Shown here: one piece after another, positions 24,985 to 56,122 of the stretch
How positions within the stretch are numbered: position 1 is the stretch's first letter
How the letters are laid out: each line of letters starts with the position of its first letter
Assembly: GCF_008831285.2 (NCBI RefSeq)
Contig: NC_045147.1
Span: forward strand, 11,225,427 to 11,289,426
Direction: 5' to 3'
DNA length: 64,000 nucleotides
DNA from: Nymphaea colorata
Taxonomy: Eukaryota; Streptophyta; Magnoliopsida; Nymphaeales; Nymphaeaceae
Position numbers and translations under genes: made by a program
The notes under the pieces: generated by a model
Told to the model about the DNA's origin: nothing
Database searches by the model: none
What the model saw: only the letters and a program-made list of their open reading frames with translations

Positions 24985-26194
24985 TTAGAGGTTGTTTGAT
25001 TGCTGTCCATTGAGACAGGACAGACAGGACGCCCTGTCCATTACACTTCCTGTCCTCATGGACAATAATGTCTCTTGTCCACTGTTTGATGATTTAAGAA
25101 CATAACACTACATTCTTTTTATCTGGCGTTTGTTTCGCATATGTCTATTCTGTTTGTTTTGTCATATGTCTATTCTGTTTGTTTTGTTCGTTCTGTCTGA
25201 CGTTTGTTTTTGTCTTATCCGATCTATTTGTTCTGTCCGTTGTTTTGTGTGTTGCATGGTTAGTTATGTCTGTCCTGTCTAGTGTTTATTTATGTTCTGT
25301 TCGAATTGTCTGTTATATTCGGTGTTTGTATCTTCTATAATCAGTTTTGGCTATTACATTTGTTTTGTCCGCTAAATATGATATCTTATTTTCTGAATAT
25401 GTTATATCAAAACAAGTATAAAATTCATAACAACATGTTATATGCAAATCAATGCATTCGATAACATGATTCATACTATTATAGCAAAATCAACTCTTTC
25501 AATAGAGGCATATATATACATCATTACTGTAAAGTGTTCAAACTTCTATATAATTACCAATATTAAGTAAAAATACAAAATACAAATAGTCTAAAATGTT
25601 CAACTGTTATAAGCCATATGTTGGAGTACATTGATACAAAAATACGGTTCCTATATAGTCATCTTCTGTCCTACACTACTCTTTCCATCGAAGTCATGTA
25701 ATACTTAAGAAGAAGCAACACCAACTGGTTCCTGCATTTCATAAATTGAAAAGACAAACAAATAATTAGATAATCGCCATAAAGTAATAAAATAATCAAG
25801 TATAATTAAAACAATGTCATATAATATAGTGAGAATGTTAGACAATGAGTATATTACTTGAAACATAATCAAAAGGCACTGGAATCCAATTTATGAATAA
25901 TAATATTGAATGAAGATGTCCTTTTGCAAATTACGAAAGTGCTGGAATCCAATTTATGCACTAAAGCAAAACGTATGAATCACCTTATCAAAAGGGAGAG
26001 AGTAACAGATGGGCACTTACCTTATCAAAAGCATAAAAAAGGCGCATAGGGAATTTACAAATGTCCATACTCTTAAAAAAGAAAAATCAAAACAGGCAAA
26101 TTATCAAGAGGTTTTGATTTCTACCAACATGTTCTATCAGTAATGAAAGACCACAAACAAATTATTGGGAGTTAGTGGAAACCCACCATTGTAT

Positions 26195-26616
26195 ATGCAG
26201 CAGAAGTGATTCGATCCTTGAATTTGCAATGCCCAACTTATGTTTGCAACATCATTTCCACCCCCAATTCAGCCATTCGAGTATTCTCAAACAGACAAGA
26301 GTGGAAACAGGCTCTCAGGAATGCTCTTGAAGCTAGAAACCGGATGCTGAAGCTCTCCTGTTATAGACAATATGTCTGCCTTTACAAATGGAATCAATTT
26401 GTACTGGAGACAGGCGATTCTGATCCATTTTCTATGAATGAAATGGACCCTTTACAAATGATAGAGTCTGGTTTTGATGTTCTATCTAAAGAATGCAAAC
26501 AAAGTGATCCTTCACGACCCCAGTTTGGGGTTTCTAGGAAGAATGAATCTAGACATTTTGGTGCTTGTAAGGAACAGCTTCATGTTATGCCATTCATATT
26601 ATACCAACGCAATTAA
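26195..26616 (+). pseudogene. Unrecognised exon-like fragment inside the TIR element
   Basis: A frame open from just after a good acceptor (ttgtatatgcag, ending 26200) reads NRQEWKQALRNALEARN, YRQYVCLYKWNQFVLETG and MIESGFDVLSKECK. It has the balanced composition of a real soluble protein, with helical, charged segments. I do not recognise the family. It has no start codon of its own near the acceptor and no identified partner exons. It lies inside a transposable element with no transposase, so I read it as a captured host-gene exon. Confidence 0.4.
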
Positions 26617-26842
26617 ATCACATAAAATAAATTGCAAAAAATTTACAAAGGATCAGGACATATCAAAATACAGAAGAATTTGTGGTTGTGATTAACTGAA
26701 TCATCATCGTTCAAATCAGTGATAGCACAAAAACTGCAGCCTTTTATAGGTGCTCAGTTATGGGCCAGTGATTCTGTCCCTCAAATCTGCCTTTTTTGGA
26801 CTTGGGCTTGATGCCTGTCAGAGCATCCATGGCTGTCCTTAA

Positions 26843-28815
26843 GGGCCCATTTGATGGGCTGGAAATGTGGAATTGAAAATATATTTCTGGAAATATATTT
26901 TCTGGAATAATGAAATGAGAAAAATATCTCTGATTCCCATTTTGATGTGTGTGTGATGACTGAGAAATATATTTCCAAAAATATATTTCTGTTTTTGATG
27001 ATAAAGAAAGATATTTACTAAAACATATGGAGATCTTAGATGTGGAGATCTTAGATGCATGGTTCTCAAAGTCACAATGTGCTAGAACCACTGATTTAGG
27101 GTGGGCTCCATGTTAAATTAAACACTCAAAATCGAATTATATCTATTAACTGAGCTATTAACAGAACAACAAAATAGAGAAACGGGAAACAACAGAGGAT
27201 ATACTGCAGAAATTGGTTACAGGAGCATACTAAAGTAAACTAAGAAACAGTGAGATGCAGTATCAGAAATGCCTAGTGACATAACCACTAGATGGGTTAG
27301 AATAGTTGAGTTAAGAAAAAGAAAAAAACGCCAGGGTTAAGAACAACAAAACAAAATATTTGTTCTAATCAGCTATTGATATATAACAATAAAAAAAGTA
27401 CCATTGAGAAAAAAAATATTTGTTCTAATCAGCTATTTGGTTGAACTCTCCAGTTCACCATCTTTGACTTCATCTCTAATGGCATCTAACAGTGAACATG
27501 CTTCTGGTTTTTCAATTCCAAGACATTCGACGGTCAATGGTTTCTTTTCCTCATATTCACATGAAATTGCTTGTTTCCCAGTTTCTGATTCACCTTCATT
27601 AGAATATTCTACAATTCCACCATCAAGCAGTATGGAGAAAACCTTTGCAGCAGCCTTCTCAGCCTTCTGTTTCTGATTGTTCACAATCTCGAGCTGTGTC
27701 TCTAATTCATAAACCTAACAAAGAAGACCAGGCTACCAGCAAAATTAAAATACGCGAAACTAAAGTTAAAAATGAACACCAACATATTCGAACCAGGCCC
27801 AAGAATAGGCATCCGTGATGAACCCAATCCCAACAACAGAAATCAACAAAAGCATAAATAATCATAAAAGCCTAAAAATCACCACAGCATGACACCCAAC
27901 AATAGAATTCGCACAAGAAAGGAAACAGACACCAAATCGAAGACAATAAAATGCAGTCGATGGCACTTACGAGGACACCCGAAAAGGAATACATGAAAAC
28001 CCATCAAAACTTCTATTCTACGACTGCGACGGGGCATAGAAGTTGCCGGGAGGAAGAGAAGGGGAAACAAACATAGTGAGGAGCCCTAGTGTTGGTAAAC
28101 AGCACAAAGTGAAACCTCAAAAATTCCAACCATCATGATCAGCACCACCAATGTTCACCATTTGTTTGGTTCGTGAGGTGAACAGAATGGACACCTGACA
28201 ATCTGTTCTCGTTGCATTCCAAGCACCGTCTCAGAACACCTCATCGTCTTCCTCATAAACCTTCCTACGGCCATGGCATTTCACAGGGCACGAACCTCAT
28301 GTCGCCGCACACCTCGCAGACATCGCCGCAAACAACTGATGAACCTCATTAACAAACAAAAGAACAACAAATGCCTATGGTCAGGAACGACCAACCTCAA
28401 CTCTTAAAACCACAAAAGAAAAGGGGGAGACGAAGAAAAACCCCCTCCTGCTACTCCAGAATCCTTACGAGGAAGATGAGAAGAGGCAGTGGCGGAGGAC
28501 GATGATGAAAAGTGGAAGAGAGGCAGCAGTAGCGTGAGGCAGTGGTGGAGGGCGAAGATGAGGAGAGGAAGACAAGGCAGCAGCATGAGGCAGCGACGGA
28601 GGAAGACGAAGCAGCCCGACGTGAGCCCTAACGGGCAAAAAAATAATTCCAAAAAAATGTTTCCACCTCTTGCGGTGGAAATATGTTTCTGGAAAGATGT
28701 TTCCGGAATCGACCTCAACGGTCAAAAAAAAGTTTCCGTGTTTGTTATGCTGGAAATTTTTTCAAAATTTGAAATATATTTCCTGATCTACAGGAAATTT
28801 CCAGCCCGTCAAACG
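26843..28815. mobile_element. Nested TIR element (TAA duplication) with a captured exon
   Basis: The left end contains CATTTGATGGGCTGGAAAT. The right end in reverse complement is CGTTTGACGGGCTGGAAAT. TAA flanks both sides (26840-26842, 28816-28818). Subterminal words (ggaaatatatttctgg, gatgtgtgtgtgatgactga, and on the right ctgatctacaggaaattt) recur in the element at 34057-35224, so both belong to one family. The left end has about five extra bases beyond the match. The interior carries the coiled-coil exon at 27433-27722 on the minus strand. No transposase is visible. Confidence 0.65.
27433..27722 (-). pseudogene. Exon-like coiled-coil fragment inside the nested element
   Basis: On the minus strand an acceptor (TTTGTTAG, ending just before 27713) is followed by a frame reading VYELETQLEIVNNQKQKAEK, AAAKVFSILLDGGIVEY and then an acidic tail, with a stop (TAG) near 27433. 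The leucine and charged heptads suggest a coiled coil. The pattern QKAEKAAA..ILLDGGI resembles segments of plant coiled-coil proteins that I cannot name with confidence. Upstream exons are not found. Its position inside a transposase-less TIR element suggests gene capture. Confidence 0.4.
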
Positions 28816-30483
28816 TAAGCTAATTGCAACAAAACAGAAGCATCTGGGGAGAACCCCAAGAGCGGTTGAACAGCAAAAGTTTCACACTGAAAGTTTCAAT
28901 GCCTCAAGATACAGTTATTATATTTAGTGAAAAACATTCAATATACTACGAGATCTAAAAGTAATATCTTTAGGAAACATGATCTTTGGCGCTTAGGAAC
29001 TAAATTGCAGAACATATAACAAGCATAGCCTACTGACCACCAACAACATTTTCCTGATGTATGTATATGACTCAACAAGATGGAAGTGACTGAACGAGAA
29101 CTAAAAGCAAGAACTGCACAAGAAACCTGCGGTATGACGAGGCCGGCTGCCAAAAATACAATAATCTAACAAGAGATAACAACAGCAAAAACCATAATAT
29201 GCCATCAACATACAGAAACATAAGGTACAAAGCCAAATTTTATAAAATTAGTAGAGACATACCCAAGGCCATAAGTAAAGAAAACACTAGAAGCACACGC
29301 ATAAAGAGAATTTAGCAAGCAAAGTAGAAATGGAGGATGAAATAAGAAACTTGTGAGACATCTGATGAGACCATGTAGATTTTATTTCTGCAATCTTGTT
29401 GAGCTCAGTATTTTAGTGTTTAGTGACAAGCCCCAAAAGCAGTTCATCATCAGAAAATTCAATCATATTGTGTTTTGCTTAAGCTATGTCGGCATCTTGC
29501 TGTAAAGTTTTACAAACAGCAAAAGCAGAAATTGGAATGGAGGAAATAACTTAAAACAGGCAAACAAATGTTTTTGCTCTGTTAGTTGGCTCATGTCGAA
29601 GTCTAGGAGATGACAATCACAATCACAATGACTATTAATCATGATATGGCTGTCCTGTGCATGTTTTCACCTGTTTTTTTTTTCTTTTGACAACAACAAC
29701 ACAAATCCAGAGGCCATACCAACGTGAAAAATGCAATTGACAAAAGGGAGACTTGAAATAGGGCAGTAGCTTTTGGACTTTCAGATGATTTGGGAAGCAA
29801 AAATCAAGAAGAGAGGATTAGTCACTTCACTGCCACTGCTGAAATCTTCAATCACTTGAAAGCTCCACGTCTTTCTCTCCTTCTTCCTTCTTCCAACTGA
29901 AGAGGTCGATGAACGGCAAAGACCAACGGGAGCAGATAACTCCCTCAATGACTCTATTCAGCAGAGGAAGAAGCAAACGAGTGATATTTTTCAGTAGACG
30001 GAACAAAAGCGTCCGGCGGTTGCCCTCCCGCGGAGACGGAGGAGGAGAAAAACAAAAGGGCTAGGGCAGGTCGAGCAACGAAGAATAAGGAGAGAAACAG
30101 GAAGAGCTAGGGCAGCTCGGGGCGGAGACGGGGGCGGAGATGGAGGAGAAGGAGAAAAAAAAATGGAGTCGGGGGCTCAGGGTTGGGGAAGCTCGTGGTC
30201 GTCGGGGGTGGGAGAGTTCTGAAAGTGGAGGGGGGAGAGTTCTGAAAATGGAGTCGGGGGCTTGGGGTCGGGGTCGGGGAAGCTCGTGGTCGTCGAGGGC
30301 AGAGAGTTATGTCTGTTCTGAGGGTTAGCTCGGAATGGAATGGAACAAAAAATCATGTTATACTCTTGTCCAGTTGTATGTCGTGTCCAGTCTGTTCTGT
30401 GGACGATGTTTGATGAAAAATTTACTTAGACAGGACACGTGTGTCCTGTTCCGCATGTCTTGTGACCATCAAACGACCTCTTA

Positions 30484-31209: not shown

Positions 31210-31585
31210 TAAGTTTGCTGGTCCGTTATGTTTCAATCAACATGCTTTGTTAGTCAACTCAACAATGGTATCCTAACTTATTTTGTCTGTCGGTAATTTA
31301 ATGCTGCTCAACTCGTGCATGATAGTGTTGCAAGAGCCTGCCGGTTAATTAGGTTTGCTATTTTTTGCCCAACCAGGTGGCTTGGCCCAATCGGGTGGCG
31401 GAGCCAGGATTTTTTTTAATCTGAGGGCAAAAAATAGCAAACCTAATTAACCGGCAGGCTCTTGCAACACTATCATGCACGAGTTGAGCAGCATTAAATT
31501 ACCGACAGACAAAATAAGTTAGGATACCATTGTTGAGTTGACTAACAAAGCATGTTGATTGAAACATAACGGACCAGCAAACTTA
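31210..31585. repeat. 161-bp perfect inverted repeat (large hairpin)
   Basis: The left arm 31210-31370 (taagtttgctggtccg ... ttttttgccc) and the right arm 31425-31585 are exact reverse complements as far as I can read. They are separated by 54 bp (31371-31424). The spacer contains ggtggcggagccagg, the terminal motif of the hAT-like MITEs found at 50950-56586. A transcript through this would fold into a long perfect hairpin. Confidence 0.93.
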
Positions 31586-32334: not shown

Positions 32335-32339
32335 AAGGA
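32335..32339. other. Target-site duplication AAGGA (left)
   Basis: AAGGA precedes the TG of the 5' LTR and is repeated at 35479-35483 directly after the 3' LTR. This fixes the borders of the LTR element. Confidence 0.8.
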
Positions 32340-33056
32340 TGTTGCAGACCGATTGTGTATGGCCCGGCCAAGTCAGTAGAAAGATATGTTGTTTGGTCAG
32401 CTTAGGCATTGCTCGGGAAGAATGTGGGATCCAATCGAACGCTAAGTCAAGCAGAAAGCAATGCTTGTAGATGTGCAGCGCGGTGGTGCAGTGACGAAGC
32501 GAATAAATGCTTCATAGTCATCAGTCCTTTTGAAAGTGCAAGTTCGACGTTGGGGAATCAGATGGGTTCCCAACGCATTGCGTTTGGATGTGCAAGGGGG
32601 TGCGCGTGGGTTAGGGGTGATTCCTCGAGTAGACGCATATGCTGCGTTCATAACCACGTAGAGTCACGCGGGAATGAGCAAGTGAATGTTAATCGTCGAG
32701 TAGGGTGATGGTTGGTCGCCTTACTTAATGACATATAGTTGTCAACTGGCTTCGGCTGGGAACTTCCTCTCAAGGGAAGTCTACCCCCACTCAGATTTCG
32801 TATGGAAGTAGATGGGCACTTGGAAGAATGGCGATGTTCTGACAGGGCCTCATGGCCACGGCTTGCCAATGGTTTACAATGGGATAAACCTGGGTGATGG
32901 TGTGTTGAGTGCGTAGTACTCCTCGTCTAGTCCATAGCCCCATAAGATTGATGAAGGCTTTCGCTATATTAAGAATGACTCAGGCTGGCCGAAGGCTTTG
33001 GGAAACCCTTCGGCGTCGCGCAGGTCAAATAGGCTTGAAAAAGTCAGCCAGTGACA
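32340..33056 (+). repeat. 5' LTR of the small LTR element
   Basis: 717 bp, starting TGTTGCAGACCGATTG and ending CAGCCAGTGACA. It is the intact copy: it carries the uninterrupted sequence ccttacttaatgacatatag where the partner LTR has the TIR element. This makes it an empty-site reference. Confidence 0.88.
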
Positions 33057-33058
33057 AG

Positions 33059-33070
33059 TGGTATCAGAGC
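33059..33070 (+). other. Primer-binding site, tRNA-Met type
   Basis: TGGTATCAGAGC lies two bases after the 5' LTR. It is the standard primer-binding site complementary to the 3' end of initiator tRNA-Met used by many plant LTR retrotransposons. Confidence 0.92.
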
Positions 33071-33656
33071 AGACGATTTCTCGAAAAGAACTTGAAAGAT
33101 GAGAACGCTGTGAAGATAATAAACAAGTGGTTCTGAAAAACGTTGGCTTGTTTGGTGCCCCAGGGTTTGGACATGTTCGTCGGACACTAGTTCAAGTGAC
33201 CGCGTTGGTGTTGGTCAGTTAGAAATCACACGTTCCAAAGATGGTGTCTGGGTGTCAGGAGTATGAAGGCCAAGAGGGCCGCTCGTTGAGGCAGATAGGG
33301 TGAGAGACCCAACGTGAAAAAGGATTGTCGAGGAGGGCAAGTGCCCTTAGTGTTTACGTGACTCAAGGGAGCATGTAGAGTACAGGTTGGCAACACATCT
33401 TGCAAATTTGAGATTTAGTGGTCGTCGGATATGTTTTAGACTTTACTAAGGAAAAGTGCAAATAGTGATAGAAAAGTAGGAAAAAACTAAGAATGGACTA
33501 GAGGCAAAACACCTGATAAGGCAGGTAGCCACGACGTGACGGGTGCGTCAATCAGACGGATGTAGGCTCGGTTGAAAAGAAATGAAAGGAATGGTTGCTG
33601 AGTTTCTCTCGCTCGAAACAAAGTCACTGAGGACTGACGATTTGGTGGTGGGAGAA

Positions 33657-34056
33657 TGTTGCAGGCCGACTGTTTATGACCCGGCCAAGTCAGTAAAAGG
33701 GTATGTTGCTTGGCCAGCTAAGGCATTGCTCGGGAAGTATCTGGGATCCAATCAAACGTTAAGTCAAGCAAAAAGCAATGCACGTGGATGTGCAGTACGG
33801 TGGTGCAGTGACGAAGCGTATAAATGTTTCATGGTCATCAGTCTCTTTGAAAAGTCCTTTTGGAATGCAAGTCCATCGTTAGGGAATCAGATGGGTTTCC
33901 CATGTGTGGCGTTTGGATGCGCAATGAGGTGTGCATGGGTTAGGGGCAATTCCCCCAGTGGATGCATATGTTGCTTCCACAACCGCGTAGAGTCACGCGA
34001 GGATGAGCAAGTGAATGTTCATCGTCGAGTAAGGTGATGGTCGGCTGCCTTACTTA
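33657..34056 (+). repeat. 3' LTR of the small LTR element, first part
   Basis: Begins TGTTGCAGGCCGACTG and follows the 5' LTR closely to ...gccttactta, where the nested TIR element interrupts it. Confidence 0.87.
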
Positions 34057-35224
34057 GGGGATGCAATGGAAATCAAGAATTGGAGACATTTTGCTGGAAA
34101 TAAGTTTCCTGGAAAAAATGAATTGGAAAAAAGTTTCTACGTCCCATTTGGATGTGTGTTTGATGACTGTTTCTCAGTTTGATTAAAAAGAAATATGTCT
34201 CAAGATTGAGCGCCGCCAGCTCTTCTCTCTACCCATCCGGCGGCCCTCGCCCCTCTTCGCCGTGCCCTCCTCCCCCTCTTCCCCTCCTCCCCTTCTTCCC
34301 CTCTTCCCCGTGCCCTCCTCCCCTTCTTCCCCTCTTCCCCGTGCCCTCCTCCCCCTCTTCCCCTCCTCCCCTTCTTCCCCTCTTCCCCTTTTCCCCTCTT
34401 CGCCGTGCCCTCCTCCCCCTCTTCCCCTCCTTCCCTCTTCGCTGTGCCCTCCTCCCCCTCTTCCCCTCCTCCCCTTCTTCCCCTCCTTCGCTCTTCGTCG
34501 TGCCCTCCTCCCCTTCTTCCCCTCTTCCCCTCTTCTCCTTCCCTCTTCGCCATGCCCTCCTCCCCTTCTTCCCCTCTTCCCCTCCTTCCCTCTTCGCCGT
34601 GCCCTCCTCCCCTTCTTCCCCTCTTCTTCTTCCCTCTTCGCCGTGCCCTCCTTCCCTCTTCGCCGTGCCCTCTTCCCCTCCTCCCCTTCTTCCCCTCTTC
34701 TCCTTCCCTCTTCGTCGTGCCCTCCTCCCCTTCTTCCCCTCCTTCCCTCTTCGTTGTGCCCTCTTCTCCTTCCCCTTCTTCCCCTCCTCCCCTTCTTCCC
34801 CTCTTCGCCGTGCCCTCCTCCCCTTCTTCTCCTTCCCTCTTCGCCGTGCCCTTCTTCCCCTCTTCTCCTTCCCTCCTCGCCGTGCCCTCCTCCCCTTCTT
34901 CCCCTCTTCCCTTCTTCTCCTTCCTTCCTCCTTCCTCCTTCCTTCCTCCTCCCTTCTTCTCCTTCCCTTCTTCTTCCTCCCTTCTTCTTCCTTCCCTTCT
35001 CTTCCTCCTCCCTTCTTCTTCTTCCTTCCCTTCTTTTCTCCAACGGTAAAAAAAAAAAAAATCCAAAAAAATTTTTCGACCCCTTTGGCTGGAAAAAAAT
35101 TTCTGGAATTTTTTTTCGGTTTCCACCTCCAATGGTAAAAAAAATATCTCCCCGTTTTATGAAATCAGAAAATTTTCAAATATTTTTTCCCCTGTTACAG
35201 GAGATTTCCGGCGTATCAAACGCC
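34057..35224. mobile_element. TIR element nested in the 3' LTR
   Basis: The insertion is defined by comparison with the intact 5' LTR. It shares subterminal words with the element at 26843-28815 (catttggatgtgtgtttgatgactg on the left; ctgttacaggagatttccgg and gtatcaaacg on the right). The expected TTA duplication is present on the left (acTTA), but the right side has lost it with about three LTR bases. It has no transposase. Its centre is the pyrimidine-only minisatellite at 34240-35040. Confidence 0.72.
34240..35040. repeat. Homopyrimidine minisatellite (CCTC/TTCC with CGCCGTGCC spacers)
   Basis: About 800 bp of almost pure C and T on the plus strand. It is built from irregular units of roughly 30-45 bp such as ccctcttcgccgtgccctcc followed by ccccttcttcccctc runs. 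Open frames on both strands (Pro/Ser-rich plus, Glu/Arg/Gly-rich minus) are artefacts of the missing stop-codon letters. The strand asymmetry could favour triplex or slipped structures. Confidence 0.93.
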
Positions 35225-35478
35225 ACATATGGTCGTCAACTGGCTTCGGCTGGGGACTTGCTCCCAAAAGAAGTTTACCCCCACTCAGATTTCATATAGA
35301 AGTAGATAGGTACTTGGAGGAATGACGATGTTCTGACAATGCCTCATAGTCACAGCTTGTCGATGGTTTACAATGGAATAAACCTGGATGATGGTATGCA
35401 CTCAGGATGAAGTGCTGATTTTAGAACACGAGCGAAGGATATATTAAGAATAGCTGAAGATTTTTCTGTGCCGTGACA
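35225..35478 (+). repeat. 3' LTR of the small LTR element, second part
   Basis: Resumes acatatggtcgtcaactggc and follows the 5' LTR to about 35400. It then departs: a 35-bp segment (35404-35438) replaces LTR sequence. Short matches (atattaagaata and the terminal ccgtgaca) follow before the AAGGA duplication. Confidence 0.75.
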
Positions 35479-55555: not shown

Positions 55556-55779
55556 TATAGAGGTTGTTTGGCAACAGTGATACATTGTTTTTATCTCATT
55601 CGTAAAATACTTTGGCAAGTACTGTTCCATGACTCTGCCCATTCTTTTGGGTCAGATTTACGAGACAGTAACAATATATTACTGCTATCAAAGCAAGTAC
55701 TGTTCCATGAATCTGCCCATTCTTTTGGGTCAGATTCACGAGACAGTAACAATATATTACTGCTATCAAACGACCCCCT
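55556..55779. mobile_element. Fold-back MITE built from a 78-bp tandem repeat
   Basis: The ends read TAGAGGTTGTTTGGCAACAG and, in reverse complement, TAGGGGGTCGTTTGATAGCAG, similar to the ends of the large element at 24988-30480. Inside are two tandem copies (55615-55692, 55693-55770). Each is itself near-palindromic around ttcttttggg. The exact target duplication could not be resolved. Confidence 0.65.
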
Positions 55780-56122
55780 AGCATGTCATTTCCATCTTCA
55801 AATCTAATTGCACTAATAGGGCTACTGCAACTAGTTTCATATATGGAATACTCACAAACACGTCGAAAAGTGTTTAGGAATTCCCATGAAAGGAAGAATA
55901 TGACACTTTGAAAGGAGTCTAGGAATTCAGTCCTGCTCATCTTTGTTTTTGTCGCCTCTGCTCATCACAAGACTTGCAATGACTGAAGAGCATCATCACA
56001 CTGTTGCTGGCATGTTTGCAGCCACTAGCATCCAGCTAGCGACCTGCTCTTCAAATATAATTGTCTTTGTCTATACTGATTCTCTTCATCCTCCTAACAC
56101 CACCATCTTTGTATCGAGCAAC
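55780..56122. other. Intergenic DNA
   Basis: No gene recognised. Short frames only. Confidence 0.4.

Follow-up and report, generated by a model that had tools for sequence, protein, structure and literature searches.

The 64,000-nucleotide stretch of the Nymphaea colorata genome analyzed here (the window) lies on contig NC_045147.1, at C10:11225427-11289426; C numbers below denote contigs and L numbers loci. It contains a transposable element of probable PIF/Harbinger type at 24988-30480, recognized from its ends, from copies elsewhere in the genome (408 Mb in 783 contigs were searched), and by the lack of a transposase among its frames. The element is flanked by copies of a TTA target site at 24985-24987 and 30481-30483 and ends in 15-bp terminal inverted repeats (TIRs), namely GAGGTTGTTTGATTG at 24988-25002 on the plus strand and GAGGTCGTTTGATGG, the reverse complement of 30466-30480, on the minus strand. 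The left arm (24988-25871, plus strand) is common to relatives that have a transposase remnant just inside it, as seen by BLAST against 20 fetched copies and by tblastn with a remnant frame from L028. The right arm (29379-30480, plus strand) is shared to different depths by the fetched copies: from 29379 by L016 and L021, from 29422 by L013, from 29424 by L017, and nearer the end by others. Between the arms lie a fused open frame (26176-26616), a second TIR element (26843-28820), and a further piece of likely captured DNA (29008-29382).

TIR ends with TTA on both sides and dense subterminal repeats had been claimed in a first-pass annotation made from the sequence alone, and both are borne out. 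The end motif by itself is not above chance inside the window (15 matches with up to 3 mismatches, compared to 11.4 expected, a count of 15 being reached by 16 shuffles out of 100); it is the copies found in the genome that make the ends secure. The subterminal motif TGTCCTGTC, with up to 1 mismatch, occurs 21 times in the window, compared to 11.1 expected and with no shuffle out of 100 reaching 21; nine of these occurrences fall within the element, four in its first 300 bases and four in its last 110. No second copy of the outer element was detected within the window by self-comparison.

A genome search with the first 413 bases of the element returned at least 46 matching pieces, including the element itself; this is a lower bound, since 40 of 323 candidates were scored. 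The left boundary is sharp, with 38 of the 46 rows starting at query base 1 or 2. We fetched 20 other copies, the best of the list minus three (two that start at base 189, and C5:19003547). Outside the left end, 17 of the 20 have the triplet TTA or TAA, the exceptions being L011 (TGA), L021 (CGT), and L022 (TCA). Right ends were looked for within about 9.6 kb, with up to 3 mismatches allowed, and were accepted in 10 of the 20 copies, after exclusion of a 3-mismatch match in L019, whose surroundings do not fit, and of matches belonging to neighboring copies in L012, L014, L016, and L020. Eight of the 10 two-ended copies (L009, L013, L014, L015, L016, L017, L020, and L026) have matching TTA or TAA target triplets. 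Short TIRs are thus common to members of the family across the genome, as in PIF/Harbinger elements.

The contents between such ends vary. L015 is a 7.2-kb relative with TTA on both sides that holds a cellulose synthase exon (L015:3727-4194, E = 1.6e-61) and also keeps a transposase remnant; a cellulose synthase fragment has been reported also in a Mutator family of grapevine (PMC2528002). L022 carries plastid ribosomal protein L28 sequence, and L009 and L020 have a cargo that is described below.

As the first-pass annotation had stated, the window element lacks a transposase: neither a transposase nor a Myb family was found among its 58 open frames (45 or more amino acids, E values up to 0.1). 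Its left arm stops about where, in relatives, the remnant frame of L028 starts. This frame matches DDE_Tnp_4 (5.2e-4, 20.1 bits) and Plant_tran (6.3e-4), both of which we take to be markers of the PIF type, and tblastn recovered it in eight other loci: L010, L011, L014, L015, L021, and L023, plus two in which the match is weak, L016 and L026. The equivalent stretch of L015 matches DDE_Tnp_4 at 3.4e-5, scoring 24.0 bits where the cut-off is 24.8. Deeper inside lies a second frame, common to L014, L015, L021, and L028. The PIF/Harbinger class is supported by the target-site triplets together with these sub-cut-off remnants, and would be read from them. A survey of the 51 frames of 150 or more amino acids in L010 to L028 found 16 families, mostly of retrotransposons; an aspartic-protease-like frame in L013 was set aside because it lies outside the element there.

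The cargo includes a frame of 146 codons plus a stop (26176-26616, plus strand). Its length is modest by itself: when the element is simulated without its insert, 13 of 300 runs reach it, as do 2 of 300 for the left 1.86 kb. Genome searches and DNA comparison showed two matches: 26108-26379 (plus strand) with a C8 locus (L037 4960-4681), at 88.3% identity, and 26389-26597 (plus strand) with part of a 646-codon open frame on C11 (L036 5081-5289), at 94.7% identity and with the reading frame kept. The alignment shows where the two join, and it is only the 26389-26597 part that falls in a long open frame at its source. Searched as protein, the frame has seven matches in the genome, including itself: two on C3 at 91%, the C11 frame at 87% over residues 66-136, two overlapping matches on C8 at 52% and 55%, one of them with two stops, and a weak match at C3:11136711 (E = 0.07). 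Because the C8 and C11 loci match the elements over the captured stretches only, and not over the arms, we take them as the sources. The exon-like frame proposed earlier at 26195-26616 is therefore a genuine open frame, starting at 26176, but not a single exon, being a fusion from two unlinked sources; the splice acceptor proposed with it does exist as an AG motif before 26195 and is a putative acceptor, but at this position the corresponding C8 sequence is different.

Downstream of the C11 frame, on the same strand, are frames that match PX (2.3e-7) and Rubicon-homology (2.8e-16 and 5.4e-10) families; a C8 frame (L037:5042-5308) has no Pfam family. Neither the fused frame nor the frame in the nested element gave anything useful when searched against Pfam and PDB, with weak repeat-protein matches at best (E = 0.017), and the L009 frame likewise gave nothing useful. 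Single-sequence structure models of the two window frames were poor (mean predicted local distance difference test scores of 49 and 53). Nearer the right arm, 29008-29382 (plus strand) is 93% identical to C1:21922625-21922993 and is likely a captured piece; the same genome search also matched C3:18255265 at 73%.

L009 and L020, the two C3 loci, are sibling elements about 220 kb apart, each with TTA on both sides and each with the same C8-C11 fusion. They are 99.1% identical over the part compared (1251/1262), and the window copy is 95.1% identical to L009 (464/488). The left flanks of the siblings are unlike (81/139). In the siblings the C11-derived part extends over 527 bases, at 95.8% and 96.6% identity to C11, and the fused frame is free of stops over 276 codons; the remainder of the C11 part has been lost from the window copy. 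L009 also carries an L28 exon (Pfam, 3.2e-18; PDB 4v61, 6.1e-36), which is present in L020 at 96%. The likely parent of this exon, judging by an 89% match, is C8:23418617-23418868. A third L28 place, C12:4884299 (79%, one stop), falls within the L022 element, and a further match on C14 is at 54%. L022 shares with L009 the left arm, the L28 part (87%), and a portion of the right arm, and is without the C8-C11 fusion. Same-ended elements whose contents differ and yet are partly shared are what stepwise capture would predict, although recombination between copies could also give this result.

The nested element (26843-28820), delimited from fetched copies, the siblings, and its end sequences, has TAA target-site copies at 26840-26842 and 28821-28823. 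TAA also occurs at 28816-28818, so that the right end could instead be at 28815; we prefer 28820 because it gives ends of equal length and fits the related locus L043. A nested TIR element had been noticed in the first-pass annotation, to which we add that it carries host exon DNA itself. Its positions 27447-27726 (minus strand) match the first part of a 288-codon open frame on C1 (L039 1768-1489) at 95.4% identity. L039 shares just these 280 bases, inside the 288-codon frame, and from this match is the likely source of the exon piece; a paralogue on C11 (L044) is at 81%, and neither source frame nor paralogue has a Pfam family. The frame at 27436-27714 is ordinary in length (153 of 300 simulations reach it) and has eight genome matches, including a weak one on C6 (E = 0.6). 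L043, on C9, matches nearly the whole nested element as two pieces (85% and 91%) separated by an extra stretch, has similar ends, and as read has TAA on both sides, and three places on C13 share parts of nested-element positions 45-1237. The nested element is absent from the same site in L009 and L020, which reads CCTTAAGGTTATTGC, the window sides being CCTTAA and TAATTGC. The sibling site may be one that was never filled, or may hold the trace of an excision.

Elsewhere in the window, 34067-35222 is a decayed element related to the nested family; its two end parts match at 78% and 71%, and its interior is rich in CCCCTCTT. It sits in one of two related repeat copies that together occupy 32336-35398, the other copy (32336-32904) being without it. 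Between the copies is a TGGTATCAGAGC motif, presumably a primer-binding site, and the arrangement resembles a short long-terminal-repeat element.

Taken together, these observations point to a Pack-type PIF/Harbinger transposon that carries a mosaic of host DNA and has a gene-carrying PIF-like element nested inside it, a reading that we hold with a probability of roughly 0.9. It has no transposase of its own among the 58 frames, it contains DNA with host parents (C11 at 94.7% and, for the nested element, C1 at 95.4%), and its relatives have varied cargo. A Pack-type Harbinger element had been proposed in the first-pass annotation; the parental loci found on C11 and C8 with the translated frame and the same-ended copies with other contents (L015, L022, L009, and L020) support that proposal, and the copies do not refute the element ends. 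In the mechanism we envisage, the two arms would have been kept as the parts recognized by a PIF transposase, with the transposase gene replaced by a mosaic from at least two, and probably three, unlinked loci (C11, C8, and probably C1). Copying during repair, or joint movement of neighboring copies, may have brought in the host pieces. Movement would be in trans, by the transposase of related elements, and the mosaic would have spread together with the element, as the copies at different sites in one assembly indicate. The second PIF-like element, with other ends and a piece of another host exon, would then have inserted into the window copy.

Several observations weigh against this account. 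Right ends were not accepted in 10 of the 20 copies (including L023, half of which is masked), and the triplets of L018 and L022 do not match. The transposase remnants are weak, the L015 and L028 matches lying just under the Pfam cut-offs; the corresponding piece of L021 and the second shared frame of L028 have no Pfam family, and no intact autonomous copy was found among the relatives. On the side of the sources, the 646-codon C11 frame is without any Pfam family, and it would belong to the PX/Rubicon-homology gene by its position. The C8 stretch has stops in the fused reading frame at its source and is not necessarily part of a gene. The direction of capture, with the C11 and C1 frames as parents rather than copies, is something we infer. 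Finally, compared with the siblings, the nested site shows 5 differing bases.

That a host gene was rearranged, or a segment duplicated, with transposon ends nearby by chance would agree with the host origin of the cargo and with the 69 codons that retain the reading frame of the C11 source. We regard it as extremely improbable: the same fused cargo recurs at two other sites, with the same ends, TTA copies, and unlike left flanks, and the sources are on different contigs and match only piecewise. Assignment of the capturing element to another superfamily, such as hAT or Mutator, draws on the sub-threshold scores of the transposase remnants, but the 3-bp TTA or TAA copies in 8 of 10 two-ended elements argue against it, as do DDE_Tnp_4 and Plant_tran, the two families hit by the L028 frame at E < 0.001, both of PIF type; it is highly improbable.

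As an addition to, and not a substitute for, the Pack-type reading, the fused frame could serve the host as a new chimeric gene. The 276-codon stop-free frame of both siblings would suit this, as would their crude ratios of non-synonymous to synonymous change relative to the C11 source, 0.46 for L009 (8 synonymous and 14 non-synonymous changes) and 0.52 for L020 (6 and 12). The window copy, however, is cut short and has 3 and 8 (0.70), and L009 differs from L020 by 2 synonymous and 6 non-synonymous changes (0.79); window and L009 differ by 5 and 10 (0.49). These counts are too small for a claim of constraint, and host use appears improbable. Beyond this, transcription of the C8-C11 frame might yield a new chimeric protein, or small RNAs directed at the C11 gene, while L022, the siblings, and the window copy might represent successive captures made by two PIF lineages in interaction, and one lineage would have left the siblings again with a small trace. 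We consider this combined scenario unlikely.

Other features of the window include frames that match fatty acid hydroxylase, DUF7054, Ribosomal_L7Ae, RVT_1, RVT_2, and Copia gag families. The 376 bases at 31210-31585 form an inverted repeat with themselves (91%); an exact direct repeat of 189 bases comes next, with copies at 31583 and 31965. An apparent small element at 55560-55782 has the end GAGGTTGTTTGG, with GGGGGTCGTTTGAT as the reverse complement of the other end, and contains a 78-base tandem repeat.

Gene capture by PIF elements is already established as a phenomenon. Pack-MULE target-site copies are 9 bp. The Pack-MULEs of rice, which are named in PMC13317346, belong to another superfamily and have longer TIRs; the likeness to the window element is in the host gene fragments that they carry between TIRs. 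The first-pass annotation had called Harbinger-type capture less common, and it is added here as a correction that such PIF elements have been published (PMC8903248 and PMC2528002). Pack-PIF elements, described in maize and rice (PMC8903248), are alike in having PIF-type ends, mostly TTA or TAA target-site copies, host coding DNA, and a non-autonomous state as presented there; the difference is that here single copies are traced to their sources, with relatives that hold part of the cargo and a nested gene-carrying element. The Pifvine-3 PIF elements of grapevine carry transduplicated exons and introns, sometimes common to several copies, and have mostly TAA or TTA target-site copies, according to the account in PMC2528002; the grapevine PIF families described there keep coding capacity for transposase and ORF1, neither of which was seen in the window element. 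Set beside these systems, the window element is a clear and unusually legible new case of an already known kind of exon shuffling by PIF elements, with the sources, the partly shared cargo, and the later spread all readable in one genome, so that models of gene uptake by cut-and-paste elements become testable for PIF elements.
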